From Siphonodentalium dalli (taxonomy: Eukaryota > Mollusca > Scaphopoda > Gadilida > Siphonodentaliidae): a stretch of 64,000 nt of DNA. Position 1 is the stretch's first letter. Every line of letters starts with the position of its first letter. Both the position numbers and the translations under genes were made by a program. Shown in pieces: positions 615 to 60,568 of the stretch. The notes below the pieces were generated by a model. It was given only the letters and a program-made list of their open reading frames with translations, was not told the origin of the DNA and ran no database searches. Location of the stretch: contig CP136065.1 of the NCBI GenBank assembly GCA_032622095.1, positions 93,069,343 to 93,133,342 of the forward strand, in the 5' to 3' direction.

Positions 615-773
615 CCCTTCCATGGCCAGAGCTTCCTGAAAATTTGTCAAAACCCTGTGCCAATGCATTCTCCTATATATGCGAGTCTCCCATTGGGTGC
701 CTCGCATATATAAGAGAATGTACTGTCACAGGATCTTTAATGATGCACCAGCACAGCTCCCATTATCAAGGGG
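615..773. mobile_element. TTAA MITE, family M3 (CATGACTGGAGC ends)
   Basis: TTAA on both sides. Ends CCCTTCCATGGCCAGAGCTT and (right) CAGCTCCC..AAGGGG. The centre is one copy of the shared palindrome GCATTCTC..TATATATGCGAG read inward from both arms. Confidence 0.75.
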
Positions 774-1123
774 TTAATAGCAAGAGTTGATAGTCATATG
801 TCAACTCTCAAATGAGGAAGTTTTAACACATTTTTGAATTTTTGTCAGACAAGCAAAAATTTCAATGATCGTCTCTGATAAAGAGCGTCCATGCTATCGT
901 TTCCCAAAAACGGTAGATAATGATGAGCATTCTCAATTATGAAGTTTTGTACTTGGTTTCAAAATAAAATCTGATGGATACTTTTTTAGACATTCATGAT
1001 GTCTATGACACACGATGATGGTGATATTAGTATTTTCTCTTCAATTTTCTTTTTCCCAAAAAGCTGAAAAACACCTAAGGAAATTTTGACTAATTTGGTG
1101 TCAAATCTGACTGTGTATCTTTC

Positions 1124-1270
1124 ACCCTTTCATGACGGGAGCTGCACTTGTGCAGCATTAATCCTTTCATGATGAGAACTGCGCTAGTGCAGCGTTAACC
1201 CTTTCATGACGGGAGCTGCGCTGGTGCCGTATTAACCCTTTCATTATGGGAGCTGCGCTGGTGCTGCTTT
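1124..1270. repeat. Four 37-bp tandem copies of the M3 terminus
   Basis: Copies begin near 1124, 1161, 1198 and 1235; the unit reads CCCTTTCATGACGGGAGCTG, then CGCTGGTGCAGC and TTAA. It is the end of the M3 MITE repeated head to tail, leading into a degraded palindrome core at about 1275-1345. Confidence 0.8.
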
Positions 1271-1274
1271 AAAG

Positions 1275-1345
1275 ATCCTGCATTCGCTTATATATGCGAG
1301 TCTCCCATAGGGAGCGCTGCATATATAAAAGAATGGACTGGCTTA
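1275..1345. mobile_element. Degraded M3 hairpin core
   Basis: Contains TATATATGCGAGTCTCCCAT and the opposite arm GCATATATAAAAGAATG. No clean right terminus follows. Confidence 0.6.
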
Positions 1346-1884: not shown

Positions 1885-1980
1885 ACATAGAGGCTCCCTA
1901 TGGCAGACTCACATATATATAAGAGAATGTATTGGCACAGGGTTTTCGCAAAATTTCAGGAAGCTTCTGGCATGGGAGGG
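1885..1980. mobile_element. Right-hand half of an M3 MITE
   Basis: ACATATATATAAGAGAATGT, GGCACAGGG, then AGCTTCTGGCATGGGAGGG and TTAA. The left half is missing. Confidence 0.6.
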
Positions 1981-2055
1981 TTAACAGGGTCATTATAGAA
2001 CTTTTGGCACTATCTCATGGCATGAATTTTGGCATGCCTTTTGGCTCGAATTTTG

Positions 2056-2496: not shown

Positions 2497-2499
2497 CGC

Positions 2500-4086: not shown

Positions 4087-7000
4087 CTGTAAGAGAAATA
4101 TGTAGAGACGTGATAGCTAGTAGTTATCCAGTCAATATGAGCAAGCCTGCAAATAGTGTGTCTGTCATTTGCAGAATGAGGTCCCCAGAGAGTGAATTTA
4201 GTGACGCGAAACCACACCAGGGTTCATGCTGCCATAGGCCTTACCCCAAAATCGGAAATCTAATTCAAAAACCCAAATTTATTTAGTATCGCTAAAAAAA
4301 CATGTACCAGGAGTTTCAAGAACCTGGAATTCCTAAAATTAATTTCCCAGTACTTTCCAGTTTCCATGATAGGTGTACAGACACTGATTTGTCTACAGTA
4401 TTACATATACTCCAATTCCCTCAGTGTATGAACCCTGATTTGTCTACAGTATTACATATACTCCAATTCTATAGGTGTATGAACCCTGATTTGTCTATAA
4501 TATTACATATACTCCAAATCTATAGGTGTATGAACACTGATTTGTCTATAATATTACATATACTCCAATTCTATTGAACAACATGCAACAGACTTGACTA
4601 GACACTCTTTATAATGCAGCCAATGCAATGAACACAATACAATGATTACAGCTTTAGTGTATAGTACCGGTACCTGGATCTTTCATATTTGCAAGCCAGA
4701 GAAGGATTTACTTCTAAATTGATTGGCAGTTTAGCAGCAGTATCTACAGCAAATTTTCCCCGCATGAGTCGCATTAACCCTTCACAGAACTTCTGACCCA
4801 TTTCCTCCAGAATTCTGGTTGACACCAGCACATCCTGTTAGAATGAAAAAAATAAATAATCACTGATTGAGAATGAGTCTGACATAAGATTTTATTACAT
4901 TACTTGCAGAGAAAAAGGACCTTAGTCAGTTTTTGGGATTCAGATTCGGATTTACAATAGAAATGTTACTGCCGAAAATAGTTTCCCGACACGGCTTCAG
5001 CTTGTGACAAAACGTCGCAGCTCTAGCTCAATAAGAACCTTATTGTTTTTTAAATATCGAGACATTTTACATTGACTTTCTTGTTGATCTACAACGAAAA
5101 AATAATGAGATGTTGTCGTTTGATACTAAAATGTCTTATTGTGACAACAAATTTAAAGAAATAGCTCTGAGCTCTGATATGTAGTCAGACCTGATTACAT
5201 TAAAAATTGGAAATAGGGAGATTTGTCCTCAGAAATAGGGAGATTTAGTGAAATATAGGGAGATTTTTTTTCAATGTCAGCATCAAGGAAAAAAACTTCA
5301 TATTTCTCATTTAAATGTCATATAGACTGCTGCATTGGGTTTGCGTCTGCCACAAACACGTTTTATGCAATGCTGTTAAATAAAAGAGAATCAATGTTGT
5401 GTCAACATTTTATCACTGTTTGACTCGCAGGAGATATGTTCTTAATTGATTTGTAACACTATAGCATGCAAGGCTTAACGCTTGCAACAGCCGTTGGCTA
5501 ATTTTTGGTTTTATCTTTTGAAACCGGAGAATTCATTTCATGATCGGGAGCACAGGAGAAATGACAAAATCGGGAGACTCCCGCCAAAATCGGGAAAGTA
5601 AACAGGTCTGTATGTAGTCATAACAACAAAGCACTGCATGATTACTCGCAGCATATTAGGTCAGCTGGGGATCCAGTTATATAATATCAAATGGTGTTTT
5701 TGCCTCGTCCAAACATCACAATTAACTGTGAACTAACTGACTTCATTTAACCCTTTGAGTGCCAGGGGCCAATCTCATCGGCCCTAAACCTACAAAATAA
5801 GTCTGTTAAAGAATATAAGAATAAATTATTAAAATTGTAAAAAATTGTATAAAAAAAAAAAAAAAAAAAAAATATTGTTAGACCAATGCATTCTCTTATA
5901 TATGCGAGGCGACCTATGGTCGACTCGCATATATAAGAGAATGTATTGGCACAGGGTATATGGGTTGATACAAAAATCGACCTGGCACTCAAAGGTTTAA
6001 GAAATGAATGTAGTTGAAGAGTGTTTTATTGATGGGTATGGCGCTTTGGCCATAGGGCACATTGTGTGCACCACTAAAGGGCTCCAATGGCCATAGTGCC
6101 ATACCCCTCAATAAAACACACTCAAAACTACATTTATTTCTTATAATTATATAGATTAATAAAATTCAGCTGAATTGTGTTCTGAAGTCTGCATGCAGTG
6201 TGGATATTATACCATGGCCCACTCTGTACTGTACAATGTTCTATCTGTGAATTATCAATCGATTAGTCTATGGCCATACACTTGAAAAAAAACACTCCCA
6301 TCTATCTACCACTTTTGGTTATGTACCGGTAGGTCAACAAGATGCGATGTGAGTTCGTTTTATGGTGTGTTTCATTAGGATTTAGTAACATGCTACATAA
6401 ATTTAAAAATAAATTTGAATCTTTTAACATAAGGAAATGTGTGAAATAAACACATAACAAAATAAACATTGATGGCTAATTAAACGACAACAATTGTTTT
6501 ACAGTATTACGTTAATTGACAGCTTCTGATTAATTTATATTGGCATACCTTGTATTTGCCTTGGTCAAAACTTGAGTAAGTACTCTCCATGGTGTAACTT
6601 CTAATAATGCCAAGTTGTCGCCACACGACCACCCTTGCGGACCCCTCCTTACATTTAGTGATCGCATAGCTGCAGTCTTGCAGTGAAAATGCTGGAGCTA
6701 TGTAATCAAGTATGCGGGGTAGAATCTGTAAAGTGAATAAACAAATATTCAGATCAGTCAGAACAAAAGCATCGCTAGGGCATGGAACAAATATGCACGT
6801 GGTAATTTCAACAAAGGGCCATACCTCTGGTAAAAATTGGCAGGCGAAAACCAAATTTGAACTTGACCTGTATTTTGGGCTAGTAAAATTACATACCAAA
6901 TTTCATTCCATTCAGTTCAGACTTACTAAAGTTACCATCCGGAAACGAAAATTGGTTGCAAATTCCAACAAAAAGGGCCATAAATCTGGTCATAATTGGC

Positions 7001-10000
7001 GGGTGGAACCAAAATTTGAACTTGACCAGTAATTTGTGCTGGTAAACCCATACCAAATTTCTTTCCATTCTGTTCAGACTGAACAAAAAAAGTGAATGGA
7101 TGGCAATATCAATGATAGCGTGTTTAAAGACATATTATGGACATGTACGGGTGCATGAAACTGTTAAGGTAGTACTCAGTTGCTATGCCAACTGTGGGGA
7201 ATGTAGAATTCTACTAACATCGCCGAATATCTCAAAGAATTCGACCATACCACTCCATAGAAATCATCGACTGAACTATGTTTAATTGTAAATATTTACA
7301 TCTCGATTCGGGACGTAAACAACCGGCGATAAGCTAATGCAAATGATTTCGCCATCGGGAGTCGTTGCATTTAATTAATATATAATAATGACAGTATGAG
7401 CTGTAAATTTGGATTAATATTTGTAAAAATAACTACTTTTAGCAAGATTATTCTCCATCTCTATTTGATCACCCAACCGGTGTGTTTCACATCACTTTAA
7501 GGGCTTTATGGATTACGAGCTTAGGAAGAGTCCATATTAACAGGTTTAAGGGCTAGTTTGAATATCTATATTAGCATACCACATATACAGCATACATTAG
7601 GCCCAAAAAAAAAAATTTGATTCTCAGGCAATATATTTTTTGAAAATCAACGAGGAAGCGAGGGTTTTATTTTTATTTTTAATTTTTTTCTCATCCCATA
7701 GTAACCATTATTATACCAGATAAAAAAAATGTAGTGAGCTTTGTAAAGGATATAAAGTAAATTAACCTGATATAAAGCATATCGATTTATATAAAAACAT
7801 GGAACGTAGATACAGTCGAAACGCAAAGATAAAGTGATCTCCCAAACTATCATAGAAAGTCTTGATTCACTTATTCCGCTGCTTAATTAAAGACTGTATA
7901 TGTACCACAATGGATGATAAGACAATAAAACTTAAAATAAAAACATAACATGGCTAATATACATGTATACCGCTGGTCAAACTGTATTGTTTTTGTTCCT
8001 TCAAATGGCAATAGCATAGCAAGGGGAAAAACTCAATCTTTCAGGGTTACTTTTTATATACCTGTTTTTTTTTCAAAACGGGCATACAAAAAGAACAATA
8101 TGAAGCATTATTGCATTATTGGATATCGATGTTGTTCTATCACAGATTCTATCAAAGATCGCAGGGTCTGCATTGGCCTGAAATTTATTTTAGTCAAAAT
8201 GATTTTCCAACTAAAATTATGTGGCAGAAACTGATAGCATTTAGAAGTTGCCAAATGCTATCAGTTTCTGCCACATAATTTCTGTCTAATATTTCACCAA
8301 TCACTGTTGAACAGCTTTTGATATCGATCTGAAAGCATTTAATTATTAATAATTCTTGCCTACATGTAGCTCGGCACTGTGGTTTATCAAAAACCAATAA
8401 ACCAATCACCGAACACTAAAATCGTAGATGGTTGCTTTGTCAAAAGTGGGCATCAAAACTAAGAGGATTAGGCCAAAAAAATAAAGGGTTTTGATTATCT
8501 GGCATAGCCGCGTCTGGAAAAAAGGCCCGCGTTGAACCATTTTATTACGATTTTCAAATTTGACCACACTGTCAAATGATAACACGAAAATAGGAAACTA
8601 GAAAACAGAAATTAGTTTATGTTTCAAACACCAAATATGATAGACATACAATGGTGTATGTGTTGGTATTCAAAAACAGACACTAGGCAACGATAACTAC
8701 CAGGTATATTGTCACCACAAGGTGCCCAAACCCCAAGTTTATTGAGTCAAATGTGTTCAAATATTTCGGTATTTTATCAATTCGAAAAGGTAAACGGTAA
8801 ACGGGAAACAATTCTGAGATTTACCATTCGGAAAGAAATATGGTGCGCATTGGCGATGTGTATGCTGGTTTGATCATCGATCTACACAATATATGTCGAT
8901 GGTTTAATATTTGAAGTTGTTATGGCTGGCATGTATTGAGGTACATAATATTTATTCAGATACGGCAGAATAAGTCATTCTAGACTTTCTATGAAGATCA
9001 CTATATATATCTTTTCGTTTCGATTGTATTCAATTTCTGTATTTTTATTTGAGTAATTGAACCAGATGTTTAGCTCTGTTTGTTGTTATTAAACATGCTT
9101 GTTACGAAACAATATTAGAAACGCAAATATTATCTTCCCATTAAATGTGACAACAGGTGATAAAACGTTAGTAGACTGGTCCATCTACAACGTTGAGAAC
9201 GATCTTATTATGGTCATTCTTTATAGTGGAATACATTAGTTTATAAAATTATATCAAAACAATGTTCTCCTTACATTTTCTTAACCTGGGAAAGTATAAC
9301 CCATGCTTTAAAATATGGGCATTATCCCCATAACGAAAATAAAAAATAAAAATAAAACACTCGCTCCCTCATCGATTCTCAAAAAAAATTGCCCGAGAAT
9401 CAAAACACTTTTTTTTTTTGGCCTTAGGTATGTAACTACCAACACTAGTAATCACTCTACTCTTTGATACTAATGCTATCAGATTAATGCATCTCCATAG
9501 AGGTTTGACCCTTCCATGACTGGAGCTTACCGAAATATTACAAAAAACCCTGTGCCAATGCATTCTCTTATATATGCGAGTCTCCCATAGGGAGCCTCGC
9601 ATATATAAGATAATATACAATGGCCTCACAATGTCTACATTGACCTTGTAAGCCAGTGTATTCTCTTATATATGAGAGGCTCCTATGGGAGATTTGCATA
9701 TATAAGAGAATGCATTGGCACAGGATCTTTAATGCTGCACCAGCGCAGCTCCCATCATGAAAGGGTTAATATAAAATAGTAAACACTTTATTGAACTAAA
9801 AAAGTTGGCACAAGTAAATGTCCTGACATATAACACAAGTATGAAATGAAATAAAATGAATAGAGAATACCTACAGTTTTTTTTTGAATACCGAAATATC
9901 TCGTTCATGACTGGAGAGAAATATCAAATTTTCATGAGCGGAGCCCTATAAGCCGCGAGTGAAAATTCAATATTTCTTTCCAGCCACGAATGAGATGTTT

Positions 10001-16000: not shown

Positions 16001-19000
16001 TTTTTCATCGGTGAGCAGGCCTCTAACTAGTGCAGGGACCAGCCGAGAGGGCGACGTGGGCAACTTCTTCGCCCTAGCGCCGTCCGCTTCGCCTTATTTT
16101 TGCAGTCGGGCGAAGTTCAAGTCGCCCTGAAAATTCCAAAGTTGACTGACGAAAATCGGCAAAATGCCCCAAATAATTTATGATAATTTACAACTGTCAA
16201 CTGTGATTACACACAATACTCCACTATCAGGGTGTTATAAAACAATTAACACCTGTATTGCTCCAATCTGGAAGAATGTTGACAACGGAGTCTGATTACT
16301 GGCAGCTGTGAAAACATCGTCGGGCCTCAAGTGTTAATCTCGTTGTTGTGATTTTTAGATTACCGTGATTACCACACCTTACAATGAAGATTACAACTCA
16401 CAGCTCTCACAATGTGTCAGTTCATCACTCCCTCTATGGAGTTTGGTTAAAGAAATTTTAAAACAATTCATTTGTGAAGCATATTAAAATTTCAAACGGG
16501 ATTACTAATAGAGCGCAGTAAAAGTGTTTATGATTTCGTTTCGTTTCGGTTTGATAAATATTGTTGGCATTTTTAAAAACCCGAAAAATATGAAATAAAA
16601 TCCTGTCATTCTCCCACAATTACGATATAAAATGTTGCTATCCTCTCACAATTATGTTTGGGTATTATTAATAGTTATTAGGGTCATGAAGTGAACATAA
16701 AGACTCCATATTTCAACCATTATTTCATAAGTTTAATTGACATATTACATCTCTCCTATTTTCGTTCTATAGCGACTCCTGTCGTAGTACTGATAAATTC
16801 AAATTTTGTAGACTCACTTCGCCCTATAGAACGGCCACTTCGCCTTATTTTTATAGTAGGGCGAAGTCATTTCGCCCTGAAAATCTGGTCTAGGCTGGTC
16901 CCTGAACTAGTGTAAAATCATATGATTATATGCCAGCTGCACCTGTTCTCATCTGGGCAACTGACTGATCGGCACCGCCAAAATTGGATTTACCTGCTAG
17001 AAGGCTAAATGAGTGAATTAGAATCCTAATTATTATATAACTTACTTTCCGTTAATAACACCATCAGGATTTAGCATAGGGACAATCTTGAAGATGTACT
17101 GCTCTCTCAGAGTGGAGGCATGAAGTCGCTTACTCAGCAAGTAATCAATTACACCTGGCAATGAAGGAATAAAAAATGTCATGTTTGGTACATAATCAAT
17201 ACCGGTACATTTCATTTTTTGTTTCTATTAAAGTACAATCAAATAGGCATAAACATTAATATATAAACCTGGTGCTAAATATCTAGAAACTGTTCTGGAG
17301 ACACCCATTTAACCCTTTCTATACTAAATTAAGCATCATTGATGAGTAGTGGAAAATCACATGAAAATGTTCAGATAATAAGTTCAACAGGTTGTTTTGT
17401 AGAACTTATTATCTGAACATTTGCCACCAATTAATATGAATCATTCTGCTTTTGTATTATCTTTATTCTGAATTTTGTCTGCTTTTATTACCTGATCATC
17501 TCTCCAAATGAATAATAGACCATTCCAATGTAGACTTTTGTAACTGAATGGTATAGAAAGGGTTAAACAACAGAACAAGTTATGTTAGAGAAAAATACAT
17601 TTCTCTGTTTTAGTCAAATGATAGCAGTTTGTTATATGGTTTGAACTTTGAACCCTTATCGCCAGTGCTGGAGGGCAAAATGGCTTGGATGGTACCCCTA
17701 ACCGATTGAGCCACCGAGGCCCCCCCCCCCCCCAATATAGTGTGAAATTGGCAGGCCATGTGAATATATTGTAACATATATGAGCTTACCTTTCATCACC
17801 CAGCTTGAGTTACTTTCCCCAGGATGCACTCTGGCTGACAGGTATATGTACGGCCGACTCCCTGCAAAATATATTTAATTATATAGAACAGCCATATAGT
17901 TTCATATGAGGGCTATTTAGTGTTATCCAGCATATAAAATTGCTACTGATCACATGAAAAACTATAAACACTAAATAATAAGTTCAACAAACAGCGCTGA
18001 ATATATTACTTGCCCCACCCCCATCGAAATTAATAATGAATATTGCTCGAAGTTATCATCTGAACAACTCAAAACCCAAAAACTGCAATACAGATTTATA
18101 AGTAAAACAGAGGCAAAACTGAGTCAAAATTTCTTGGACCTTGACAAAATAGAACTTGCCCTGCATCTTCTCAAATGTAAACCACGTACCAAATAACAAG
18201 AAATTCTGTTGAATATTGCTGGAGTTAACATCCAGACAAGGATTCAACATATGACACACTTATGGATGGACATGGCTCCTATCACTATCGTAGTCAGCTT
18301 TTCATATTCGCGAATAGAATAAGAACTACAAAATTAAAGAGATTTGTACAAGATTGGAATCAATGTCGCATAACTCGCATATGCGAAAAAACTAACGCAC
18401 CATATCCTTGCTCCAATTTTATATTCCTACAGTCAATGTGTGCACCCATGGTGTCCCAAACGTCGACTTTGAATGACTGACTAATAATGTAATCAAGCCT
18501 AGATATAGAAAGAGGTCCCCTGAGAGTGAATGTAGTGATGCTATCTTGTAAGGTGCTCTAGCATCACCAAATTCACCCTCTGGGAACCTCATTCGGACTA
18601 GGCCTCGATTAATATGTGAGAAGTTGAAGTTCCCCAGTTGATTTTGGTAATGTTCACTCATTAGTCAACTCGATTATGCAATTTATCATCTGCAAATTAG
18701 GGGATATAGAAAACTGAACAGAAGGGAAAAAATAACTAACAACAATGCTAATTTTAGACTATAGATACTTCCCAGAAGATGAGCCCTAAGCAGAATGAGG
18801 TCCCCAGAGGGTAAATTTAATGATACTAGCCCACTGTGCGTGATAGCGTCACTAAACTCACCCTCTGGGGACCTCATTTTGTACATGTCAGACACACTAT
18901 ATCCGGACTTGAATGTGATCAGACCATTATGACAATGACCAACATCAGCGATCATGAGAACTGCATTAAACTTTTGCGCAACCTGTATTCATTCATTGCC

Positions 19001-25000: not shown

Positions 25001-28000
25001 AAACAAAATAAATAATTTGTTAAACATGCCATTATCAATTATTTTCGTCTTCAAGTCAACCAGTGTGAACAGGTTTTTGTCCATTTGTATACACATGAAT
25101 ATCATCAGAAACAACAATATATTATTGACTGAAAATTACATTTTAATAGTGATATTTTATTTATGGTGATCAATTCATTTATTTATAGTGATAAAAGGGG
25201 AATAACTCCATCAGAAATGGTCAGACCTGTATTCTCATGTGATTAATCACATACTAAATTTTAAAGCTATCGGATACCGTCACAACTTGAGATATCATCC
25301 AGACAACAAGATAATCAGCAAATTATAAGTTGAAAAGGGGTATAACTCCACCAGAAATGATCGGACCGGATCCATATTCGAACTTGATCAGGACTTTCTT
25401 ATAAGAAGACCACTACCAAGTTTCATCACATTCTGTCGAATTCTATTAAGTTAAGTTATCATCTGGACAACAAACATTTCAGATGGACAAAAGGACAGAC
25501 AGTCAAATTGGTGGATGGACAGACAAATGGATTGCTGGACGGAAACAACTAATTTCTATAGATTTTTTTAGGGGTAAATAATTTGTAGTTATTAGCTGAA
25601 TGAATGAATCCATATGGGCTTCTCTGTCCGGGTAATCTCTATAAGGGTCACAATCAAGGAATACTGTAGTAAATAATAAATAAATGTAAAAGATAGTAGT
25701 CCATACCAAAGTTCATTTCACTGTTGAGTTTCTCAAAGTTGATGATGTTGAATCTATATGGAACATCAGCCATCATGTTGGCGACCTCGAAGTAAAACCA
25801 CTGGTGGTGATGGTTAGAGTTTACATCTGGATTCAGTATCAAGTCAAACTCATTTTCTCTCACCTGCGAGGAAAAAAACTACTTATTGTGGTAGTCAGGT
25901 GAGTACATTTTCAAATTGATTAATATTATCCACGTTCAACTATATATTGAAGATAATGGTGTATAATTACAATAGTCTGTCAAATTAGAAAATGTTCTAA
26001 TATAAGTCGAGTTGTTAAAAATTATGGGTGCCTTCAAGCACATTATTATTGCATACAACAAAATATATACAGTAATGCCCTAAGTAATCGACCTCTTAAC
26101 CACAGCAGAATTATGGGTAACTTTTCAGGATTTAGTCGGAAATATGGCTTGTTGCCATTCATCGGAAAGCTCTCCCCGAGAGCTTTCCGATGAATAGCAA
26201 CAAGCCATATTTCCGACTAAATCCTGAAAAGTTACCCATAGTTCTGCTGTGGTTAAGAGATTGATTACTTAGGGCATTACTGTAGGAGGCACTCATTTAT
26301 ATGTTAACCCTTTACCCAACAAACCGGCCAAAACCGGCCAAATAAAGCTTCAACAGCCTAAATTATCTTGGGTCTGTCTCAATAAAACCATACAAATATG
26401 GATATCATTGGAACCGGCTCATTGACCACATTGTGATGGTTACAGTTATGCCCTGTGCCAATGCATTCTCTTATATATGCGAGTCGACCATAGGTCGCCT
26501 CGCATATATAAGAGAATGCATTGGCCTAAAAAAAATATTTTTTAAACACTTTTTACCATTTTTTCTTACATTCTTTAACAATTTTATAATTTTTAATGTG
26601 TTAAGCCAATGCATTCTCTTATATATGCGAGGCGACCTATGGTCGACTCGCATATATAAGAGAATGCATTGGCACAGGGCCCTTCTGTTGGGTAAAGGGT
26701 TAATGTGTTTATTCACTGGATCACTAACCTGAATAACCCTTCTCAGGTTTCCACTCTCAAACTGAGAATTGAATTTCAGACAGTCAGGGCCAACTTCATA
26801 CTTGCCGATCCTGTAGTAAAAGATTGGAGAACTTATAGCACATAATAGTCTAAACTTTTATATCATATGAACTTATAGCACATAATAGTCTAAACTTTTA
26901 TATCATATGAACTTATAGCACATAATAGTCTAAACTTTTATATCATATGAACTTATAGCACATAATAGTCTAAACTTTTATATCATATGAACTTAAAGCA
27001 CATAATAGTCTAAACTTTTATATCATATGAACTTATAGCACATAATAGTCTAAACTTTAATATCATATGAACTTATAGCACATAATAGTCTAAACTTTTA
27101 TATCATATGAACTTATAGCACATAATAGTCTAAACTTTTATATCATATGAACTTATAGCACATAATAGTCTAAACTTTTATATCATATGAACTTATAGCA
27201 CATAATACTGATGTTGTGTTATGATCTACGGATTAGATTGTTTTTGAAATTGCACAGTTCGCAAAGATAGAATTTTATTTTTTAACAAAAACACTTTTAA
27301 TGTTTCTTTAGGTATAATCTGGGTTTTCAAATGCAATTACAGTTTAAAAACATTTGCCTAATTACAAAAGTTTGTGTTTAGGCAAATGTCTTTAAAGGGG
27401 TACAGTACACCATTTTCAATAAATTCCTGGTAATATTAACAATGATCTAATATCGATAATACATAGAAAAATAAGTAATTTTAGTTGAAGATGTACTCTG
27501 TAAACGTTCAGGTTAATAGGTTATCTTAAAATCAAAGTTAATAATTTGATATAAATTTAATTTATGGCTTGAGCCATAAATTAAATTATGAATTTCCGTG
27601 TACATGATGTAATCAAATCAATTAACAGATAGTGGATTGGGCAATGAGTGGCACACATGATCGTGTAAAAAAAATATGTTGAAATGGGGCATAAACTCAA
27701 GCCACTCACTGACTAGTGACTATACAATAACTTAAATGAGTACACGGGACTAGTATGCATATAATATAACATTTATTTGATACATTTGCTTGATAAGTGT
27801 ACAAAAAATTATTTGACAATGACAGTTTGTATTTTTGCATTCCGACTAATCTGCCATCCATAACATTACTTTGTACTGAACAGACTTTCAAATTTTCTAA
27901 ATCTGGTTACCTTATTCTACAACTCAGAGACTATAGAAACCAACAACACCATTTGAGTAGAGTATCCCTTTAAACTGTGTCCCGCACCATATTTCCAGGC

Positions 28001-34000: not shown

Positions 34001-37000
34001 ATGGACCCAAACCTGATCCCTAATTTTGCAGGGAGCAAATCACTGTTAAAATTTGGATTAGCAAATAAGTTAATTAGATATCATTGTGCTAAACCCATAG
34101 CAAAGTCATGACAAATTACATAGCTATAATCCATACAAATGTGGGTAGCAAATTGCGATGCTATGCCAGTTAATTTGCTCCCTACGCATTCGCTACATTT
34201 GTCAACATGAAACATATTTGTGAGTGACAATTTCAACGTAAACAAAACCAATGTTGTCACGTTACAATTTCAACATAAACAAAGCTACAAATCCAATGTT
34301 GTCTCACTGATCGAAGGTTCGAAATAATACTTACATTCTAAAACCAAATGAACAGAGATAACATAGCAAGTGGACTGTGTAAACATTGTTCCAGAAGAGA
34401 GTTCGACACGCGAACCGGAAAAGACGAATTCAATTCGGAATTGTAAACCACGTGCGTCGTTACCGGAAGTTGGGAAATTTCCCACAATTCTTAACAGAAC
34501 AAAGATATTTTTTAATTTTATTTACATAAGACAAATAAATTCAAGTATGAAATTGTCACTCTGATATTAATTTAACAAGTATTGTGTCGTTTCTCAAATT
34601 GAAACGAAGTCACAACAAGTTAAAAATATGGAACGGATTAGGTTAAACTAAAAAATGAACCCGACAGTATTATGTGGTTCATTTCCTCATAGCGTTTACT
34701 TCCCTCAATCTTGTCGCACAAAGATGAAAAGAGAACTTACCTGTGGATGTCCACTGCCTTATATACAGCTAGTGGACACGTGACCTGTGACTTGCTACGT
34801 CATAATAATGATTCAAAAAGGTACTTAAGCTATTTCGTACCAAAATAATAAATTTTATACGGATCTCATAGATCCTCTCTTTGTGAATAAAAATGAATAT
34901 AACATGTAGTTCAGTGTGTAACGTATCTTTGACGGGAATATGAAGTGTACTCTTATCAGAAGAAACAAACCTTGTATACATTATGAAATTGATTCTGCAG
35001 ATCAAGCAGACTGAACTGAAGTAAGGTTGCATTTAAATTTCTAGCTGAACTTCATCTTATAGCTACAATGGCAGAAAATTGTTACTGTTGTTGGTTATCA
35101 TATCAACATGTAAAATAATAAGATCCAACAACAATATAACAAATCTAATTTAGAAATCACACAGGCTCACAAATACCAAACAATGTTATTTTGTTATTGA
35201 AAAATCAACAAGTTAACCCTTTCCATACTAAATAGTCATTGATGAGTTGTTCCCTTAGGAACGGTTTGATAGATAATAAGTTCAACAAACGACCATCAAT
35301 GAATATGAATCCTTCTGCACTTGTATCAACTTTTCGTATGTCTGTCATATTCTCTTATTACCTGAACAATCCAATATATACTTATATATAATTGAATGGG
35401 AGAATCCATTTAGTAAAGAAAGTGTTATTTATTACTGTCGCTCAAAATGACAGAAACTGTATAAAATAAATAGAAATTGGTCTGGAACCTAATCTTTAAC
35501 CCTTGATGACTAGAGCTTTCTGAAATTTTGCGAAAACCCTGGGCCAATGCATTCTCTTATATAGGCTCCCATAGGGAGAAAACATTGGCCTAACAATATT
35601 TACCTTGACCTTGTAAGCCAGTGCATTTCCTTGCATATATGAGGCTCCCTATGGGAGACTCGCATATATAAGAGAATGCCATGGGTATGTTGCTGGACAT
35701 TTGCAGAATGAGGTCCCCAGAGGGTGAATTTAGTGACCTCATTCTGCATGGCCTCATCTGCAATGGGCGATCTAGACACAGATTTAAGTTCCAAGATGGT
35801 TAAGATGGTGATGTGCGCCTATTGGGTGAGAGCTTTCCAATGAATGGCAACAAGCCACATTTTTGACTAAATCCTGAAAATTTACCCATAATTCTGCTGT
35901 GGTTAAGGATTCGTTTATTTAGGGAATTACTGTACTATTACATAATAATTTATTATTTACCTCTGAACTCCAATCTTCCTCTTGTAAATTATCTCCTGGT
36001 CCGGTTGAGATCTACATCCAATCAGATCTGGGTATGCAGATTTCTCAAACATGTAAGCACTTTTCGTTGAAACTGCCTTACTTTTATACAGAACTGGGTC
36101 ATACATAAAGAGTGATCGAGAATCATTGATTTCATCATTGATTGATCTTCCTTCGAAGTCGAGCGGAAGCTCTCTAGGTGAGGCAATCGATTTTATTGAT
36201 AATTCGTCAATGAAATCTGCTGATGCTGCTTGAGACTTCTTGCTCTTTTTATCCTTGGTTTTCGAGCCTGCCTTATTTCTACGTAACGGCTTTTGGATGC
36301 TTTGTGCCCTAGCTGACTGCGAGCGGCTTGACGATGCTGATGGCAGATGAAGGTCCAATGAAAACACACTTGTTCCTGTCTTCAGATTAATGGCTGTAGC
36401 GGATCGACTAGATTTATTCAGATATTGATCGGATAAATCTGATGCCGAAGAATTCTGTAGCACAGAACTGTCAGTATAAATACCACTGTCCGTCGTCGTA
36501 CTTTTGGAGTTTGTTAACGAGGTTGATGATCTGAGCATTCGGTCACCAGATGATTTTCGAGATTTGGTGAGACATCCGTCAGATTTGTTCCTGGGTATAT
36601 AGTTCGTCTTAACACCCAGGGTTTGGCTACTGACACTTTCTTCTTCATCATCGTCACCTCCTTCAGGTATCTACAAAATCATAAGACCACGCAAAGTAAA
36701 TTTCCCTTTTCTCAGGCCAACGCGAATGGTCCTGAAATGCTGCGTGTGCAACCTTGTTATTCGCGTTTTATATCAGAAAAAATTATAATCGGTGACGTAT
36801 TATTTGAGGTAAATTTATACAAACTTGCTGTGAACTGAGATAGAACATACCCATTTCCATATTCAAATTTCCGATTAACACACGACCGTCATGATGACTT
36901 GCATCTGCAAACTCATTAAATGAAAGTGTCAATGACACTGTAGCTCAACTTAGGTAGGGGAATAATTTAATGGTTGACAGTAAATGGAGGAATAGGAAAG

Positions 37001-40000: not shown

Positions 40001-43000
40001 GACTTTGCATGACCTAATAAAATAAAAGGCCACTAAGCCACATGTCCCCCAAATAAGGTGGCTATATTTGACTGGTGACTTTTTTAATAATGAAATATTG
40101 GATTCTGAGAACAATCATTGAATCAAACTGTCTATGTTGCTAACATATTTTATCAGACACCAGAATAATTAACTCATCTAGTTATTTTTGATTAGAGACC
40201 GGAATAATTAGTACATTTTAACTTTGTGAAGTTATCATCTGAAAACCAAAATAATCTGGAAATTCTAAGTCAGCAAGGGTCATAACTCTGTTATATATAA
40301 GTGGTCAGAACCCATATTCGAAATTGGCCTTTATTTTAATGTGAGTAATCCATATACCAAAATTTCAAACAATCAGATAACTAAAACTAAAGTTAGCACC
40401 TGGAAACAAAAATGATCAGAAAATTAATAAGTCGACAATGAGGACAATGACTCTGGTTAAAATGGGTGGGCCGAACCCATATTCAAATTGAACTGTATTT
40501 TCATGTGGGTAATCCACATGCCAAATTTGAAAATAAACAGATTAACCCTTTGAGTGCCAGGTCCAATTTTTGTATCAACCCATTTACCCTGTGCCAATGC
40601 ATTCTCTTATATATGCGAGTCGACCATAGGTCGCCTCGCATATATAAGAGAATGCATTGGCCTAACAATTTTTTTTTTTTTTTTACAATCTTTTACAATT
40701 TTAATAATTTATTCTTATATTCTTTAACAGACTTATTTTGTAGGTTTAAAGCCGAAGAGATCGGCCCCTGGCACTCAAAGGGTTAATAAATCTAAATTTA
40801 ACATTCAGTTTAATCATCAAAATTATAAAGTACCATGAAGTTTCAGAGCGATGACAGCTCTAGATTTTCTTCACATGGTCTATAGTTGCAATTTTGAGGC
40901 AACCATTGACCAAAACAATTTAACGGGCACAAACGAAGCGATCTCAAATTTATTGAAAAATATAAGAAACAAAGCAAGTATTTTCAGCACTATATTGACA
41001 AATCTGTTCGGAAATCTTCAGTGTAATTATGTTTTGAGATACCTGAATTTTGGGTTATGAACGAGCCATGTCCAATTAACACTTGATAATAAACACATCA
41101 ATGAGAGAAATATAGTTTAAATTGAAAATGTTCGCTCTCTATTTTCAATATTATAAATAACAAACCTGGTACTGGATCAATTCTTGGAAGAATTTCTCGT
41201 ACATTTTAAGATCATCAGCAGATCTCTTGTACGGAGGATCGGGGTCTTCATCCTGGTCATCGTCACCCTGATAAAAAACTATTTATATCATAATCATTTT
41301 TATTTTATAGCATAAAGTAGCAAGTAGCTGCTGTACAAATTAAAGATGGTCTATCTCTTCCTATAACAAGTGTTACCCGGTATATAGTTTCCTGGATATA
41401 AAATAATAAATATGAATCGAAGACCCCATCTGGAAATTAATATTGATTTTATTTCAAATTTTCTGGTGTAAAAATTCTAAAAATATTAACAAAAAAATGT
41501 CCCACTTGATAGAAGCGTTTCCAAAAATGTGTCTTCAATTCATATGTATTATTATCCATCCCTTAACTAACACCATTTCCGATTGGGTAAAAGCCGCCAC
41601 GTGATAGTCCTGGAAAAAGTCATATTGGACTCCCGAAAGTCATATTGGACTCCCGACTGTACAATATGACTTTTCATATTGGACTCTGTGACGTCACGAA
41701 TTAACTCTATTGCGAAATGAATCGGTGAAATTGTGATGCGAGCGCAACATTAATGGATTTTAGCAGACGTTTCACTTCCGCATTGAGTTTTTTCTCACTT
41801 CCGTGTTTACTTTTCCAAATCATGCTTTCTGATGATCAATATACGGTACAGGCTTTTATAGAGAATTAAGTGCCGACAAATACCAAAAATAACCACAAAA
41901 TTTTTATTTCCAAAATTTGGATAAACATAGATGGATAATAAAAATGTCATTATACAATGTTGTGTACAGTATGAAAAACACATCCTGTACACAACATTGT
42001 ATAATAACTTTATATTATGTTATACCCCGGAAACTATATAAAACTTATTGTAGGAAGAGACAGACCATCTATAAAGTAAAAGAAATGGTTAATGGCATGT
42101 TATGGTTTCGAGCCTCAAATTATACCTAGTAATTATTGATTTGTCACATCACTGTCTGGTTTTGGCGATCAAAATAGGTCCATAAATACACAGAGTTATA
42201 TACAAACTAAATATGCCTTATTGAAATCATATGAATTACTTCTTCAGAGACAAAAGGAGGCCCTGTTTCCGCCAGTAATTTTTAAATAAAGATCACATTG
42301 CAAACTATAAACAATAAAGATGTCTGTTAGTGCTTCTATGAAAATTTAGACAGAAATATTGCTCGAAGGTTGTTCAAATGAACCATATCCGATTAAATAC
42401 AACATAAATTAGACCCAATTGATGGAAACTCTTTTACAAATTCTATCACTGAACTGCAAAATACATAAACCCCGAAGATCCATATGAAGTATGGTGATGA
42501 CCAGACAAGGGATGTGGCCTGTATGGTGTGCCAAAGAAAATTGTTGATGAATGCACTAAAGACAACCAATGGCAATAGCTCATACTTCATCAAGTTCAGC
42601 TAAAAATGAGGAAATCATCTGAAAAATGAAAAAAAATTGTTTTAATTTGAACTGACCTCCTCAGTGTTGTCTCTTTTAAACTGTTCATCGTCGCTGTCAA
42701 TATCATCATCGTCGTCCAAGGAGCTGTGATCACTGTCCGCATCTTGACTGGCATTACCACTACCTGTCCCTACATGTAAAAAACAAATTCAGAGACCAGC
42801 CTAGAGGAAGATTTCTACTCACTCCTGAAATTGATCAATCCTCAGATATTTTTAGAAAGGGAGGTGTGGACCGAGAAGACAACAGCTTGGGATATCGGTT
42901 GGTTGAAGCTGTTTTGGACCAAGTCCCATCCAGTTACTCTTTCATGGGTTATCTTGCTTGTATATCTTCAGATTAGGTCAATGCTATGTGGGGGTCATAA

Positions 43001-46000
43001 CATTCTACACTAAATACTCACTGATGAGTAGTTCCCTTAGAAAATGTTCATATAATAAGTTCAACAACAACCATTGGTCATTTGTTGAATTTATTATATG
43101 AACATCTCCCACGAATGAATATGAACTATTCTCCTCGTGTAGTACCTGTTTTTCTGTCTGCCGTCTTCTTTCATTACCTGAACATCCCTCCAAATGAATA
43201 AGCGACCATTCAAATGTATCTGCTAATGTATGAATGGGAGAATCCATTCAGTATAGAAAGGGTTAATTAACAAAATTCACTTGAACGTCCAATCCCAATA
43301 AAGCCCAATGAACCTAAAGTACTCAATTTGATTTGAAATGACTCTTCAGTTATCAGAATCGAGTAATTGCCCAAAAATAATAAGCGCAGTCAACTATATA
43401 GTATAAAATTGCCCAAAACCTGTTATTTATCAACATTTTGTTCAACATAATTTTTGCCGGTTTGTCAAATATCTGACACAAAAATGCCATTTGATTTTAG
43501 AGTTATCCATCTTCATCAGTAATTTGATCAGAGACCTTCTTCTCGTCGACTGTTTACTGGGCCACTAGACATTAGTAATTTGCGAGCGTTATTATCCATC
43601 TTTAAGTGGATAAGTACAGTAATGCCCTAAGTAATCGACTCTTTAACTACAGCAGAATTATGGGTAACTTTTCAGGATTTAGTCGGAAATATGGCTTGTT
43701 GCCATTCATCGGAAAGAGTTGATTACTTAGGGCATTACTGTAGTTGTTTAGATGGCATTGCAAGCATTATAGAATCCTACCTCGTGCACAGAGAAGCCCT
43801 TCTGGTGTATACAGATCTGATGCTGGTAGTGCATATGTTATAGGACTACAAATGTCAGTTATCGGTAGCTTATTTCTCGGACAGCATTTCCTCATGATGA
43901 CACTGGCCAATAGAATAAGGCTCTCCATCTCTCGACAATCGATCACATCTTGGGATGTCTCGTATAAAAGCTTAATGCCATTTGCATCCAGGAACTCTTT
44001 TCTTCCAGACCCTAAAAGATAAATATTAATAATGTCATAATTGTGCTCGACATCATGCACAGCAATTCTCCTTGGGATATTTATCTCCTTATTGAGAAAG
44101 TGGACAGAATCCTGGCCACTGGAAAAAGATAGCAGATACATAGAAGAAAATTAAAGAAATTTTTTATTTTTATTTGAAGGGGCTTGCCAGGTTTAAAGTG
44201 ATGTGAAACACTCTGCTGGGACAAACAGTGAATAAAGTTAAAACTTGCTCAAAGCAGTATTTTTAATTAATTTGTATCAAAATTTCTATCACACAACATA
44301 ATTCTATCATATAAATCAAATAAAATGACTCACATTAGCAGAATCATTCTCAATTGTTTATCGGCAATTTGTTCTGGACAAATGGTGAACTGTTTGTTTA
44401 AATTTGTGCATTGTTGAGATGCCGTGTTTTACAAAATGGCACATCCATTGTTGTTGAATTTTTCGACAATAATAGTAGTTTATTGATAGATTCTTTAAAT
44501 GTGGGCAGAGGCAAAATATCAGTTTTATAAGTAAAATAAGCAAATAATATGTCTTTAAATCTCATAAAGCATAATATAGAACATACAACAACAATATTGG
44601 AATTTTTTTAATTCTTGTTGAATCATGAAGATAAACATCAGAAAAATGTCAAAAAATTGAAACATATTCCCAAAACACAGAAAATGATGGAATACAGGCT
44701 CGGACAAAAGGGCAATAACTCCGACTGAACCAGCCCTCATAATTGGCTACGACAATTAGCAATGCCATAGCCATTTGCTGAAGCAAACTGGGCCAAGATA
44801 AAGGATTGCCGTAGCAGATTACCGAAGCCAAACAATGTGAATTAAGAGGGCTGGACTGAACTCAAAACCGCAGGTTCCCAATGCTAGTTGATGTGCCAAG
44901 TTTAAAAAATGACCAGAAAATGACAGAATACATGTTTGGAGAAAGTTCCAGACGAACACACGCAAACACAGACGAGACAGTGAGTTTAAGACTCGATTCA
45001 CAAACTAATTTTCATTACAATTACCATGTTGTTTGTATCGTTCATAGAGCACATGAGTGTATTTTTCACTAATCCACGGCTCAAATTCATTCATTTGTTG
45101 TATATATTCTGTCGAGTATAAAAGGAGATGGTCCCATAAATGGCCGAATTTAGTGAACAGTCCCCCTTTTATCAAGAACAACATAATTGTGATTATAGTA
45201 AAACAATTTACTGAGTTTAATAATATTTTTAAGGATATTTAATCAAGACCACTATAATAATGATTATAGTAAAACAACTTACTGAGACTAATACTATTTT
45301 TGAGGATATTATTTCAAGAATACTATTATAGTGATCATAATGAAATAACTTACTGAGATTAATGATATTTTTTAGGATATTTAGCATGGCCTTCCTCATG
45401 TTGATGTGTTTGTGTTTACTGTCGATGGTGTGCCAGTCACAGTGCAGAGTCAGCAGTGTGGGGACTCCTCCCATCCCCACCACTCGAGCGGAGTTACTCT
45501 CTGAAATAAATATAATGTTACATCTTGCATTGTTTAAGCCATTTGCATGAAGCCAAATGAATAAAAGATACAGCATTCTGGAAAAAAAAAAATTTATGAA
45601 GAATTTTCCAAGAGTTCAAAACTCAATCTCCAATGAAATCACTATTAGAAATTTAGATAGGTTTCTGTTGAAGAATTCAATTAATAGTACCAGAAATATC
45701 CATTACTGTTGGAGGTGTCATTCATGAAGAAGCTAACTGGGAATTGAAAGATTTGATTATGGAATTGCAGAATAAACAAGACAGTCAATGACTGTGGTGT
45801 CGCTCACCAGACTGTAAAGATGGAGAAGACTGGGACTCTGAAGACTACAATAGTCAGTATGTTGTTATAACATAATTAATTTTTCAAAATTTTAATTTAA
45901 ATTTTTTGTTTTTAAATTCATAAAAAAAAAAATTGAGCAAGGAGTAACAAAATGTAAATGTTTTTTTTTCTCATTTAAAAATGTTTTTTTATTTTGGTTA

Positions 46001-49000: not shown

Positions 49001-52000
49001 ACATGCCCAGCCCAAGGGAACAGTTCTTACCTCACCACCTGGGACACATTAATTGAATAAAGTGAATGATAGTCAGATAGAATATAACTTTAATAATGAG
49101 TGTTCTGCAATAAAGCTATCATAACATGTTAGTTTACCTTGTGAGCGACAATTCATCATAATTCAATGAAAACAACACTTTATCGAAAATTGTCTAGATA
49201 AAAGTGAAAATTGCCTAGGCAAAATCATTTTGCCAAGGGGAAATTTTTTTGCCTATGCAAATTTTCCTTAAATTCCCAGGGTTGCTGTTTGATTCATTGG
49301 GAACTTACAATTTGAGGTATAATCTTGAAGAGTTGAGTAGTAAACACTGCTGTATCTACTGCTGTATCTTCATCTTACTCATGCTATGCATTTAGTAAAA
49401 GAATGACCAACATCTTTTCAAGGTTTTGTTCCACAAAAAAATATGGCCATATATAAACAAGATGAAGTGGAAATTTCCAGGTTCCTCATATGTTCACTCT
49501 ATGGAATGTGTGGACAATGTTAACGTAACTAAGCAAATCATGTGACTTTATTTATTAGTGACCCATTTTATCAACTTACCCGATATGATGTCAACCTATA
49601 CTGGGCAAATTTCAAAAAGCAGTCGCATTGCCATGGATGTGATCAGATTCCAGAAGAACATGCATCTCTGGTGGAGGGATGATGGGGAGAATTTTGTTTT
49701 ATATACAAGTCATCTTCATTGGAGTTATGTTTGTATGCCAACTGATATGTGCCTAATCCAACATTCTTGTCAATCTAGTTCTCTGTGTGTTATATATTTT
49801 TCAGCACATGATGTTTGAATTGAATCGTCTCCTTTTTTGTATGTCTTTGTTCTATTCTCCAATTCTAGAGGCAATAAAGATATATATAACATTTGCATCA
49901 TAAATATATTCATTGGGAACTTACAATTTGAGGTATACAACTTAAAGACTTGTAGTAAACACTGCTGTATCTTCATGTTACTCAGGTTGTTTTTTATGCA
50001 GCTCAATGTAACTGGTAAAGCCCGATTAAGACGAGCTTTTACTGCAAATTTTCTGTCTGAAATGGCAAAAGAATATAAAGATCATAACTTTATAAAACAC
50101 AATAAGATCAAAGTTTGACAATTTAAAAATGCGATGAGATAATTACATGCTATATGTGACCTTGTCACAGTATCAGTATCCTCCCCCAATGTTAGTCTAT
50201 ATTAGTATTCTAAATAGCATTCAAATCTGACAATTACTGTCAGAGATGGTAAGGCTGTTTAGATCTCAATTTTTAGATGAGGGAGGGGGAGGGGGAGCAT
50301 AATAACCTAATGAATACTATGGAGAATAATCTAACCTTTGAGTCCGATTTTGGCAAGGATTTGATGGATTGATGTGATAAGCTCTTCAGCACCACCACCT
50401 AGCTGCGATTCGCTCACCATTATCTTCAGTAGCACATTAACAGCACCACTACTAACGAGGATTCCAGCTCGTTTACCGGTCTCTGTCAAAAGACAATTTA
50501 ATCCATGACATAATGATAAGATGCCTCTTAAAATCTGGTTAAAAACGGTAACGCAAAAATAGATTTCAATTTAGTACTTTCCAAAATCATGGCAAAATGT
50601 TGACCGCGATTGTTTAATTCAGCGAAAACTTATGCTGACGAACATTTTTCGTGGGATTTTTAATTTCAGGAACCATGAATATTGGACCAGCACTTATAAA
50701 TTTACCCTTGCTGAATATAAAAAAAATATTTATAGGCTTATAGCACAACTTAGTGATGAACAATGATATACAATGAGAATTTGATATTTAACCTTTCCAT
50801 GATTGGAGCTTCCTGAACTTTTGCAAAAATGTCAAACAACAAATTTAATGGTGTGGCATGTTAGATTCCAAATGTTGCCAAGGCTTTTCCCATGGATTGC
50901 TTATTGCCATCGCCAATTTCAAGGACTGCATATATAACAGAATACATTTTCCTGACAATATTTACCTTGACCTTGTAAGCCAGTGCATTCTCTTATATAT
51001 GAGAGGCTCCCTGGAGACTAGCAAATATAAGAGAATGCACTGGCACAGGATCTTTCATGCTGCACCAGTGCAGCTCCCATCATGATAGATTTAATAGTGA
51101 TAATGATACTAATACATTACTGCTGCCATTATGAGTTTGACTTAACCTACAATTTTTTCCAAACTCAGCATTATTCAAGCTCCCAATTTTCTAACATTTC
51201 TTCAGCATGTTGTTGCATTACAGCATGTTTAAATCATTCCAGTCTTACACTGCTATTATTCACAAATAATAAGCAATGGTTATTCTTTGAATAGTGTTTT
51301 GGTGCACAACTGCACTTGATAGAGTAATGATCGATCTAATTAATCAGTGATAGCGAGACCTTCACGAAACTTCTAGGCAACCTGTTTTTCCTCAGCGCAA
51401 CAGCATTTTTATTTTAGGTAACCTCCAGACGAACTGAACGGTCATTCGCCTCAAATTTGCAGGCCAGTCTGATGTTCATTGTCAAAGAAAGTGTCGCCGT
51501 CATCCAGAGTGAATTATAGAACAGCATATTGACCACTAAATAATGGCAAGATGCCATATACCACTATATACCGTACTGACCCGGTTCAAAGCCCATGCCC
51601 GTGTTTAAGCCCACCCATATATTTTGGCCAAATTCCATGCACAGGGGTATATTCGTGTTTAAGCCCACCCCAAATTTTTTTCAATTTCAGCGGTGGTAAG
51701 TAAGTATTTGCTAATGATACTTCCCAAATAAATAATTCCAATATAACGGGAAGTATATTCACAAACGATCGGTGACAGCGATAATGTCACGAAAAATGGA
51801 AAGTTATACTTCGTAGGCAAGTGATAATAATAAATAAAATGAAATAAAGTGAATCTTAAAATCTCATTTGTTTATTCAATTATACTTTCTGGGGGAAACC
51901 AATCGTCAACAGACGTCAAATACAAAAGAATGCAATCGCTAACGGCGTATATCTGAGAACGCGGTAAACATCAGTCAATTCAAAGAGTCACATGCGTGCA

Positions 52001-55000
52001 TCGCGCACATGTCAACAACAGTACTGTAAAAACATATTCTTTGTATGTCGGTATGTTCCTACATGTGGCCAAACACAAAAAGAACTCATTCCCTGGTTAT
52101 GTAAACACACGGTGGGTATAATAATGGGGACTTGTCATCCACAACACCCCAACAGCAAAAGATGCCTTCAAAAAAAGAGATACCGATGTCGTATTGGTAC
52201 CCGGTGGTTAGTATATAATAATCATTAATTAAAATTTTTAAACTGCTATTTTTCACGTTTTACGGTATAGACTATAGTATAAACATTAATCTGGGAGCGA
52301 TAACTCTAAACATTCAAACACGTGGTTTTTTGTATACGTATTTACATCGTCATTTCGTTAATTAACTAAACTCACTGGCTTTGTTAAATTGGTCACTATT
52401 GTTTTGTAACTCTGTGTCGACAACGGGCCATGAATAGAGCACTGGGTTCATTGTTATCCTAATCGGATTAAGTCACTCTCTTATATGTTGCACAATATTT
52501 CCCTGTACAATTTTCAGACATTTTTTAGTTATTATCTTTGGCTTCGATGACGACGGCAAAGTTGTGTTTTAATTATATTGTTTGAACATTGATATAAACT
52601 ATAGATATAGACTATAGATAGTGGATTTACCCAGCTGTCTGAAATGGCAGAAATCCGACGACCCATGATGCTTACAAACTGTCATTTATGGGAATTTTTG
52701 GCAATAAAACAAGACAAGAAGTAATATTTTAATATACACATCAAAATGAAAAAAATACTTTCTCAAATTAACTTATACTTACTGGTAACTTTATTTAATC
52801 TGGAAGTCGTGTATATTTCCCCGAAACTCTGTGTTGGATCGACTTTATTTTATGGATCTATTTCTTCAGTTTTACTGTCCCGATTTCTTGGGATTTTTGG
52901 TTTGCAAAGGGTCATATCCGAGTTTAAGCCCACTTGGATTTTTGAGCTCAAATAAAACAAAGGCCCCCTGGGCCTAAACGCGGGTCAGTACTTACGCAAT
53001 TTTCCCAGGAGCTCAGACAGAATTGCCACAATGTAAATTGAGATTTGAGTATCAGCACAATTCTGAAAATAAAAACGATAAACAATAAACACAAATAAAA
53101 CATATAGGCTCGTATTTACCAACTGGGTTTATTTTATAAACCGGGTGGTTTATTTGGTAGCGACTGAATGCACAAGGTACCTTCGTTAGTGTTTACAACA
53201 CACATCGATATTATGTCATCGATGCTATAATATTGACCTAATCTATCAAATTTGCCATTTGTCAATAGACACTACATCATGACTAAACACCACATGCAAT
53301 CTGTGAGTTTCTGACACATAGGGTATAGAGACTCAGACTGAATCTTTCTGCGGAATGAGTTTTTAACCTTACAATGACTGGAGTTTCCTGAAGCTTTGCG
53401 AAAAACCCTGTGTCAATGCATTCTCTTATAGGGAACATGATCTTTAACCCTTTGAGTGCCAGGTCGAATTTTGTATCAACCAATATACCCTGTGCCAATG
53501 CATTCTCTTATATATGCAAGTCGACCATAGGTCGCCTCGCATATATAAGAGAATGCATTGGCCTAACAATTTTTTTTTTTTTTTTTTTTTTACAATTTTA
53601 ATAATTTTTTCTTATATTCTTTAACCGACTTATTTTGTAGGTTTAGGGCCGATGAGATCGGCCCCTGGCACTCAAAGAGTTAATGGTACAGGATATTTAA
53701 TGCTGCACAAGTGCAGCTCCTGTCATGAAAGGGTGAAGATCTTAGAATTAGCACAAAGCGAGGAGGAGGAGTCAAGGCAATGTCTCAGCAGGGTTCCCAC
53801 ACCTATTTATCGAGAGGCTGATCACGATCATCAAATATTTAACCCATCCCTTGAAAATCCCAAGTTTTTGTTTAATGATGCTCGAAAACCATGTTGTTCA
53901 CCACCAGTTATTATGCTCATTGGTGCTGATATCAGCCAATATTCAGCCAATACACCCATTTGACAGTACAGTTTCTACACTTTTGTGAAACACTAATCTG
54001 TATGAACTCTATGTAACAAGAGGCCGATCACGATCGACCGATGTTTAACCAATCCCTTGGCGAGAGTAAATTACTATGATCAGAATCATAATTTAGAGTT
54101 TTGATGTTGAATTATAGAGTATACTGTTAAATACTATAATAGACAAATGTACATAATAAAACAAGTTATTAGAATTTATGGGTCAAATAGGGAGACTCGC
54201 ATAAGAGAATGCACTGGCACAGGATCTGCAATGCTGCACCAGCGCAGCTCCAGTCATGAAAGGGTTAAACCATGTCAATGGATACCATGTTCTCCAAAGG
54301 AGGTAACAAATTTAAGTATTACGGTTTGATTAGCATGGCACCGCTGATAATTCTTCCTGGATGTTATCAACAAGAATTATATAAACCTCATTACATAGAC
54401 GAAAATGTTCAAGAGCCTTCCTACAGTGCAGAAGTTATAATGGTATTAGTTTTTCAAATTTTGATAACTTTAAAAAACAAAAATTATTGAACAAGAAGTT
54501 AAATTAAAAAAAAATTCAATTTAAATACTTAAAAAAAATATAATTAAATAGCTGACAGGGGGGGGGGGGGGGGGGGGGGGGTACTCAGGCCTGGGTATCT
54601 TCTCCCAAACCCCAACTCAATCAACTTTTTCTCAGATAAAGTTAATTTCTTGCCATTTCATGACCATATCAAACAAAATAAGCAATAAAATAATAAGTTT
54701 ATTTTTTGCCATATGTTGGCTGCCTGGTAGGTGAGGGGTTGGCAAGTCGAGACTTAAAATATTAAATAAAAAAAATAAAAAAGTTTTTGCATACCATAAT
54801 AATATCAAATAAGTAAATAAACAAGGGGTACGCATCTAAGATGCTTTTGTCGAGTTTTTTGGCAGTCGAACCAAACTTCTGCCAATAAGGTGCACACCTC
54901 CGGGAAAAAAAGTTGGACGGTGGTATATTATTGCAATAGACCTATATACCAAATATCAATTGAATCCGTTAATATTTCATTGAGTTATCGCAATAACGGT

Positions 55001-60568: not shown

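Follow-up and report, generated by a model that had tools for sequence, protein, structure and literature searches.

Cassette-bearing elements in the window

The window, by which we mean the whole 64,000-nucleotide stretch of DNA analyzed here, contains many copies of three element families, E1, E2 and E3 (M1, M2 and M3 of the preliminary description), built around a palindromic core. Positions 615-59227 had been described as one mosaic; the elements are real, but the interval is a span of many separate elements and not a single feature. The copies that were read and annotated, together with those of a further family (M5) and a coding exon, are as follows.

611-777, forward strand: E3, single core, with the left end (E3L) on one side and the right end (E3R) on the other
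1121-1342, forward strand: array of four tandem E3R ends with 37-bp spacing, followed by one core
5747-6000, reverse strand: E2, single core (5883-5957), A/T stretch and E2 ends
9505-9769, forward strand: E3, consisting of E3L, core, CTAACAATATTTACCTTGACCTTGTAAG-type middle, inverted core and E3R; loop CTCCC/GGGAG
17309-17566, 35213-35427 and 59932-60192: M5
26304-26703, forward strand: E1 with TTAA ends, 97-98.5% identical to other copies; left arm 26304-26450, core 26451-26525, then an A/T middle, inverted core 26605-26679, right end 26671-26703
28511-28909, forward strand: E1, two cores, inverted
30364-30763, forward strand: E1, two cores, inverted
35496-35679, forward strand: E3, truncated on the right side, two cores
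40542-40786, forward strand: E2, single perfect core (40586-40661)
43767-44150, reverse strand: cytosolic carboxypeptidase exon, CCP1-like N-terminal TPR (PF25571, E 3e-14), matching the animal CCP1 family
50788-51094, forward strand: E3, two cores, one of them decayed
53444-53683, forward strand: E2, nested within an older E3 (E3L 53363-53405, E3R 53692-53737)
58970-59231, forward strand: E3, two inverted cores, both partly decayed

Fragments of E3 are also present besides these copies, and in the tandem array every E3R end at 1121-1277 has a TTAA-like start. M5 (CCCTTTCTATACTAAA) is a TTAA family that lacks the core; at another locus (L047:4933-5903), 17 M5 ends (TTAACCCTTTCTATACTAAA) lie in tandem with a spacing of ~45 bp.

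Intact TTAA was found on both sides of the copies at 26304-26703 (E1) and 40542-40786 (E2), and several E3 ends are decayed. E1, E2 and E3 all have CCCTTT termini, which conform to the CC[C/T]T of piggyBac/TTAA MITEs, and they have the TTAA target-site duplication of that group. Each of these three end types is present in the window well above chance; the core sequence CCTGTGCCAATGCATTCTCT has 20 matches with at most 3 mismatches (0 expected) and TATATATGCGAG has 31 with at most 1 mismatch (0.23 expected). An Rfam scan of the window gave 0 structured-RNA matches. Past CCCTTT the ends of the three families are unrelated, as had been proposed, their pairwise local scores being near shuffle level. 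The proposed core number was likewise borne out by the copies read and annotated, with one core in E2 and two, in inverted orientation, in E1 and many E3 copies. The claim that all three families hold one core needs to be qualified: a core is present in each, but that of E3 is an older loop variant, CTCCC-ATA-GGGAG, as opposed to CGACC-ATA-GGTCG in the E1 and E2 core.

Copy number and a fourth family without TTAA

Genome-wide counts were obtained from the eukaryote assembly (2.23 Gb in nine contigs). The 26-base arm CCAATGCATTCTCTTATATATGCGAG matched exactly 137,037 times and its strand-partner 137,117 times, 274,154 matches in all; the reversed 26-base arm, used as a control, gave 0 matches across the whole genome. 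The 75-base hairpin has a copy number above 100,000 and resides inside at least four MITE families with unrelated ends. In the same assembly there are 91,648 matches to E1 ends, at least 18,053 exact matches to the ends of the fourth family, E4, and 1,535 exact matches to 39 bases of the older loop variant. The core arm had no match in viral or prokaryote sequence collections. Core matches are periodic at C1:820024-926267 (~11.17 kb) and at C1:94237018-94292256 (~7.86 kb), both of which are long tandem duplications holding cassette elements.

E4 lies outside the window and was discovered in a random sample of 20 stretches of 6 kb; the E1, E2 and E4 samples are in part skewed toward well-matching copies. 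Elements of the E4 family are ~457 bp long, have ends of the form GTGACCCGCC (GTGACCCGCCATATCAAATCCAGTCGTAAGTCGGGATTTTTTTA) and, in place of the TTAA duplication of piggyBac/TTAA MITEs, are flanked by a 4-bp A/T target duplication (ATTT, ATAT or AAAT), which matches in 11 of 13 simple copies. The cores of E4 are those of E1 and E2. The same core is found between E1, E2, E3 and E4 ends, which represent two or more target-site types (TTAA and 4-bp A/T). The E4 middle includes a stretch like the end of another repeat, CCCATAGAGAGCCCC, adjoining TTAA (L105).

Long E4 copies were considered as autonomous elements and rejected, since no transposase was seen in them, their content being either two E4 elements or a Bcl-2-like ORF. 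Two copies with the ORF, L155:1-1456 (C1:4495955-4497410) and L156:1-1816 (C1:4549530-4551345), are 97% identical and have E4 ends and half-cores; in their interior, inverted GGC/TA-rich arms surround the Bcl-2-like ORF (PF00452, E 1.8e-13; best PDB match Bcl-xL). Judged from its sequence, this is a transposon-like element with a putative apoptosis-regulator gene.

Structure and borders of the cassette

The cassette, termed X, has a CCCTGT start, a 69-bp near-perfect palindrome, an A/T-rich stretch and usually an inverted second copy. The core copy at 40588 (E2) has a folding energy of -36.1 kcal/mol as single-stranded DNA (z -15). X has the features of a foldback element, in that the core is a hairpin and, in E1, E3 and E4, X as a whole is an inverted repeat. 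With a prime denoting inversion, the elements are organized as E1L-core-A/T-core'-E1R, E2L-core-A/T-E2R, E3L-core-mid3-core'-E3R (mid3 being 28 bp) and E4-core-A/T-mid4-A/T'-core'-E4'. The A/T-rich stretch adjoining the core is additionally shared by E1, E2 and E4.

In all sampled contexts (E1L, E1R, E2L, E3L, E3R and E4) X starts with (C)CCTGTG, at -1 base in E3R, and this border is the outer edge of the inverted repeat that both cores form. Cores following unusual bases were counted at 1,045 and 1,615 sites, of which 40 were read; nearly all were known contexts with point changes. The X borders have no common target duplication, being ATG-X-CCG in E1 and AAAAA-X-GAT in E3. In E4 there is a TA at either side of X, a pair that symmetry alone could give. 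No X-free E4 copy was found (0), nor any X-free E1; the seven X-poor E1 copies are all internal-deletion products. Because the borders share no duplication and X-free E1 and E4 were not found, we think that a single founding capture probably gave rise to each family, which already contained X when its own transposase amplified it; repeated entry of X is the less probable course.

Core sequence, end type and age

The 74-bp core consensus is identical in E1L (n=27), E1R (n=30), E2L (n=39) and E4 (n=27); the E3 consensus has a different loop and departs from it elsewhere at single paired sites. Among 123 modern cores the mean distance was 0.0158 within end families and 0.0148 between them (permutation p = 0.73), in a test that understates variance because many loci were chosen by similarity search or exact pattern, the choice being independent of small between-family core differences. 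The 28 end comparisons gave a few borderline values (p 0.02-0.04) across families, which is chance level. Core identity, then, does not follow the ends in E1, E2 and E4.

Pairwise identity (4-5 copies each) is 97-98.5% in E1, ~95% in E2 and 68-87% in E3, and the nesting of E2 in E3 at 53363-53737 makes E2 the younger of the two. The low identity of E3 and this nesting indicate that, of the carriers sampled, E3 is the oldest and, for that reason, the likely source of the cassette. Modern cores lie at a distance of 0.166 from E3 cores, less than the 0.205 that separates E3 cores among themselves; this fits derivation of the modern core from an E3 source.

Mosaic copies and exchange

The left arm of E2 is also found (42/44 bp identical) in a 208-bp palindromic TTAA MITE that has a different interior and is without X; E2 ends therefore occur both with and without the cassette. 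This X-free relative accounts for 9,121 exact 28-mers, genome-wide, that span the point at which X starts in E2. Six short copies that were read (L144-L149) are X-free palindromic MITEs, most of them with intact TTAA on both sides.

Middles and core variants have been recombined across end types. An E4 middle lies between E1 ends in L010, and an E2-type left end is paired with an E3 right end in L005. A single core in L112 has a left arm of the old type and a right arm of the modern type. Furthermore, in two cases (L099 with L140, and L117 with L139) E3 ends occur with a modern core together with a long A/T minisatellite, and the cargo differs between the two. The mosaic organization proposed in the preliminary description is thus supported and extended by the fourth family, by core distances that are independent of the ends and by exchanged middles. 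Two outcomes that it had named as contrary to a mosaic, ends forming one gradient of divergence and a core tree matching end types exactly, were not observed: there are no intergrading ends, E4 has a different target duplication, the E1, E2 and E4 consensus sequences are identical, and within-family distance is not below between-family distance. Most E3 cores do form a separate, older variant, but the modern core is found with E3 ends too.

Several rearranged loci were noted as well. At L141:1-801 (C1:544000-544800), tandem ~97-bp units made of E3 core and middle form a satellite from a MITE interior. Two candidates for free-living X (L081 and L104) were rejected, as both are rearranged E4 derivatives; the second (L104 with L138, C1:12717660-12718371) has X without E4 ends, between the two copies of a 26-bp direct repeat (AATTCACAATGTCACTATAAAATTCTG), an arrangement resembling a repair patch. 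A long E1 copy, L150 (C1:6269600-6272060), was likewise rejected as an autonomous element, since it has a nested 2-kb TTAA insertion and no transposase-sized ORF; the insertion has AGGAAT-type ends (AGGAATTAGTC-type) and is Kolobok-like by look only.

Maintenance of the palindrome

Where core subfamilies differ in the stem, the changes are paired (A-T to G-C at 11/71, T-A to G-C at 36/46 and C-G to A-T at 37/45), which implies that the source elements remain palindromic. Within E3 copies, one-sided changes (218) stand against 22 two-sided complementary ones. We rejected the latter as proof of selection on individual copies, because their surplus over shuffled data (22 against 10.7) mostly reflects subfamily structure (11/71 and the loop). 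Unstable palindromes are expected to show gaps clustered at their center; in the alignments, gap cells number 67 across the 30 central columns and 8 across the 39 arm columns. The one-sided changes and central gaps do not support a function of the hairpin in the host. Perfect pairing is presumably kept in amplified source forms and lost in resident copies, and the palindrome would accordingly be a property of the replicating source. Possible explanations for the core hairpin are a role in mobilization or plain quasi-palindrome correction.

Transposases

The genome contains more than 100 matches to piggyBac transposase, many of them intact. At the limits of homology, one group of copies (L051 and L059) starts with TTAACACGTTGAGTGCCGG, near the E2 end TTAACCCTTTGAGTGCCAGG, and another group starts with TTAACCCTTTATCTGC. 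The 19 piggyBac flanks, the only flanks examined, have no exact E1, E2 or E3 ends. E1, E2 and E3 are thus likely to be mobilized by piggyBac.

Origin of the mosaic

We consider it probable that X is a foldback cassette that came to lie, by capture, between the ends of non-autonomous DNA transposons of several unrelated kinds and was then amplified. Capture may have occurred by gap repair or, probably, by template switching; the foldback would have primed it, and the many cassette-bearing copies that the genome already contained would have been the donors. Captured founders would then have been amplified by a transposase that recognizes the ends, presumably piggyBac for E1-E3 and another enzyme for E4, and upkeep of the palindrome would be due either to selection acting during mobilization or to quasi-palindrome correction, not to host selection on insertions. 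Random template switching alone does not predict the constant border of X (±1 nucleotide), for which a defined unit or cruciform resolution would be needed. Since E1 and E4 are almost never found without the cassette, the capture is undatable, and the reverse, in which X captured the ends, is allowed. In a related reading, which we see as possible while leaning against it, X is a transposon parasite: a palindrome that preserves itself, enters the interiors of unrelated DNA transposons again and again, across superfamilies with differing target sites, and rides their transposases to more than 100,000 copies, its perfect pairing being retained as the carriers change.

Descent from one core-bearing ancestral MITE, of which only the ends diverged, would explain why TTAA and CCCTTT, the piggyBac hallmark, are common to E1, E2 and E3, and E3 is old enough for such an ancestor. 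However, the cores are identical and yet the ends cannot be aligned past CCCTTT, the target duplication of E4 differs, and the E2 arm also surrounds a wholly different palindromic interior, so that the E4 and E2 data contradict descent, which we regard as very improbable. It is improbable, too, that X is itself a transposable element, with CCCTGTG...CACAGGG ends and long inverted repeats, that inserted itself into several MITE families. The uniform start of X at the sampled junctions and the TA on both sides in E4 speak for this, but the E1 and E3 borders have no common target duplication, and no independent X with a short duplication of its own was seen in the ~300 kb sampled; with 0 X-free E4 sites and only seven E1 copies of the deletion type, nested insertion was rejected as the general case.

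Shuffling of middles and ends by homologous recombination or gene conversion within the abundant 75-bp core, once two families share it, would make most of the mosaic secondary to only one or two primary captures; this is a real possibility that we place short of even. It accounts for L010, for the hybrid core of L112, for E3 ends with a modern core and for an E4 copy with unlike flanking 4-mers (L076), but leaves unexplained how the core first entered the other target-site type. The core may instead have been retained as an aid to mobilization, either because transposase binds it at a sub-terminal position or because it folds back efficiently, which would let families that gain it win. Although the very high copy number of core-bearing families agrees with this, and the same was suggested for coral CMITEs (Wang et al. 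2010, PMC2872659), M5 and the palindromic E2 relatives without X are repeated too, and two transposase types would need to benefit from one sequence, which makes the explanation rather unlikely. Taken together, the mosaic is real, and the best account of it is that unrelated ends repeatedly captured a foldback interior and that the resulting elements were then amplified, a mechanism that we infer from the arrangement of the copies.

Comparison with known systems

These observations bear on how MITE families arise and why some genomes fill with MITEs. With one interior at enormous copy number, four unrelated sets of ends and, as a control, a cassette-free version of one end in a single genome, the capture step becomes testable. 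The phenomenon is known in kind, and the CMITEs of Acropora corals are a clear precedent: these TTAA-flanked MITEs, whose TIRs differ and for the most part open with CCCTTT, share a conserved ~75-bp interior of unexplained origin, occur in tandem arrays and are linked to piggyBac (Wang et al. 2010, PMC2872659). E1-E3 likewise combine TTAA and differing TIRs with a common ~75-bp interior, the interiors being likened by description alone, and the coral TIR CCCTTTCACTGCCA is one base off the X-free E2 end CCCTTTCAGTGCCA. The coral elements differ in having ~1,600 copies of ~100 bp, all at TTAA, and thus one target-site type, and their text description includes no hairpin and no X-free control (PMC2872659). 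The coral puzzle is thereby widened from one target-site type to two.

Like piggyBac/TTAA MITEs generally, E1, E2 and E3 have the TTAA duplication, CCCT termini and no coding capacity; unlike in that group, the interior here is also found in a non-TTAA family, E4. Highly conserved domains of SINEs also move between element types, such as the V domain in MER6 (PMC6887750), and are similar to X as internal modules across elements with unrelated mobility signals, whereas X is palindromic and all of its carriers are DNA transposons. Tandem repeats borne by Xenopus MITEs, Xstir and miDNA4 (reviewed in PMC12628747), parallel E3 in their tandem growth (the ~97-bp E3 core arrays at L141), and are described without sharing across families of different ends (PMC12628747). 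What is new here is the second target-site type, which takes the cassette across superfamilies, together with its copy number, the hairpin, the cassette-free E2 relative and the exchange intermediates.
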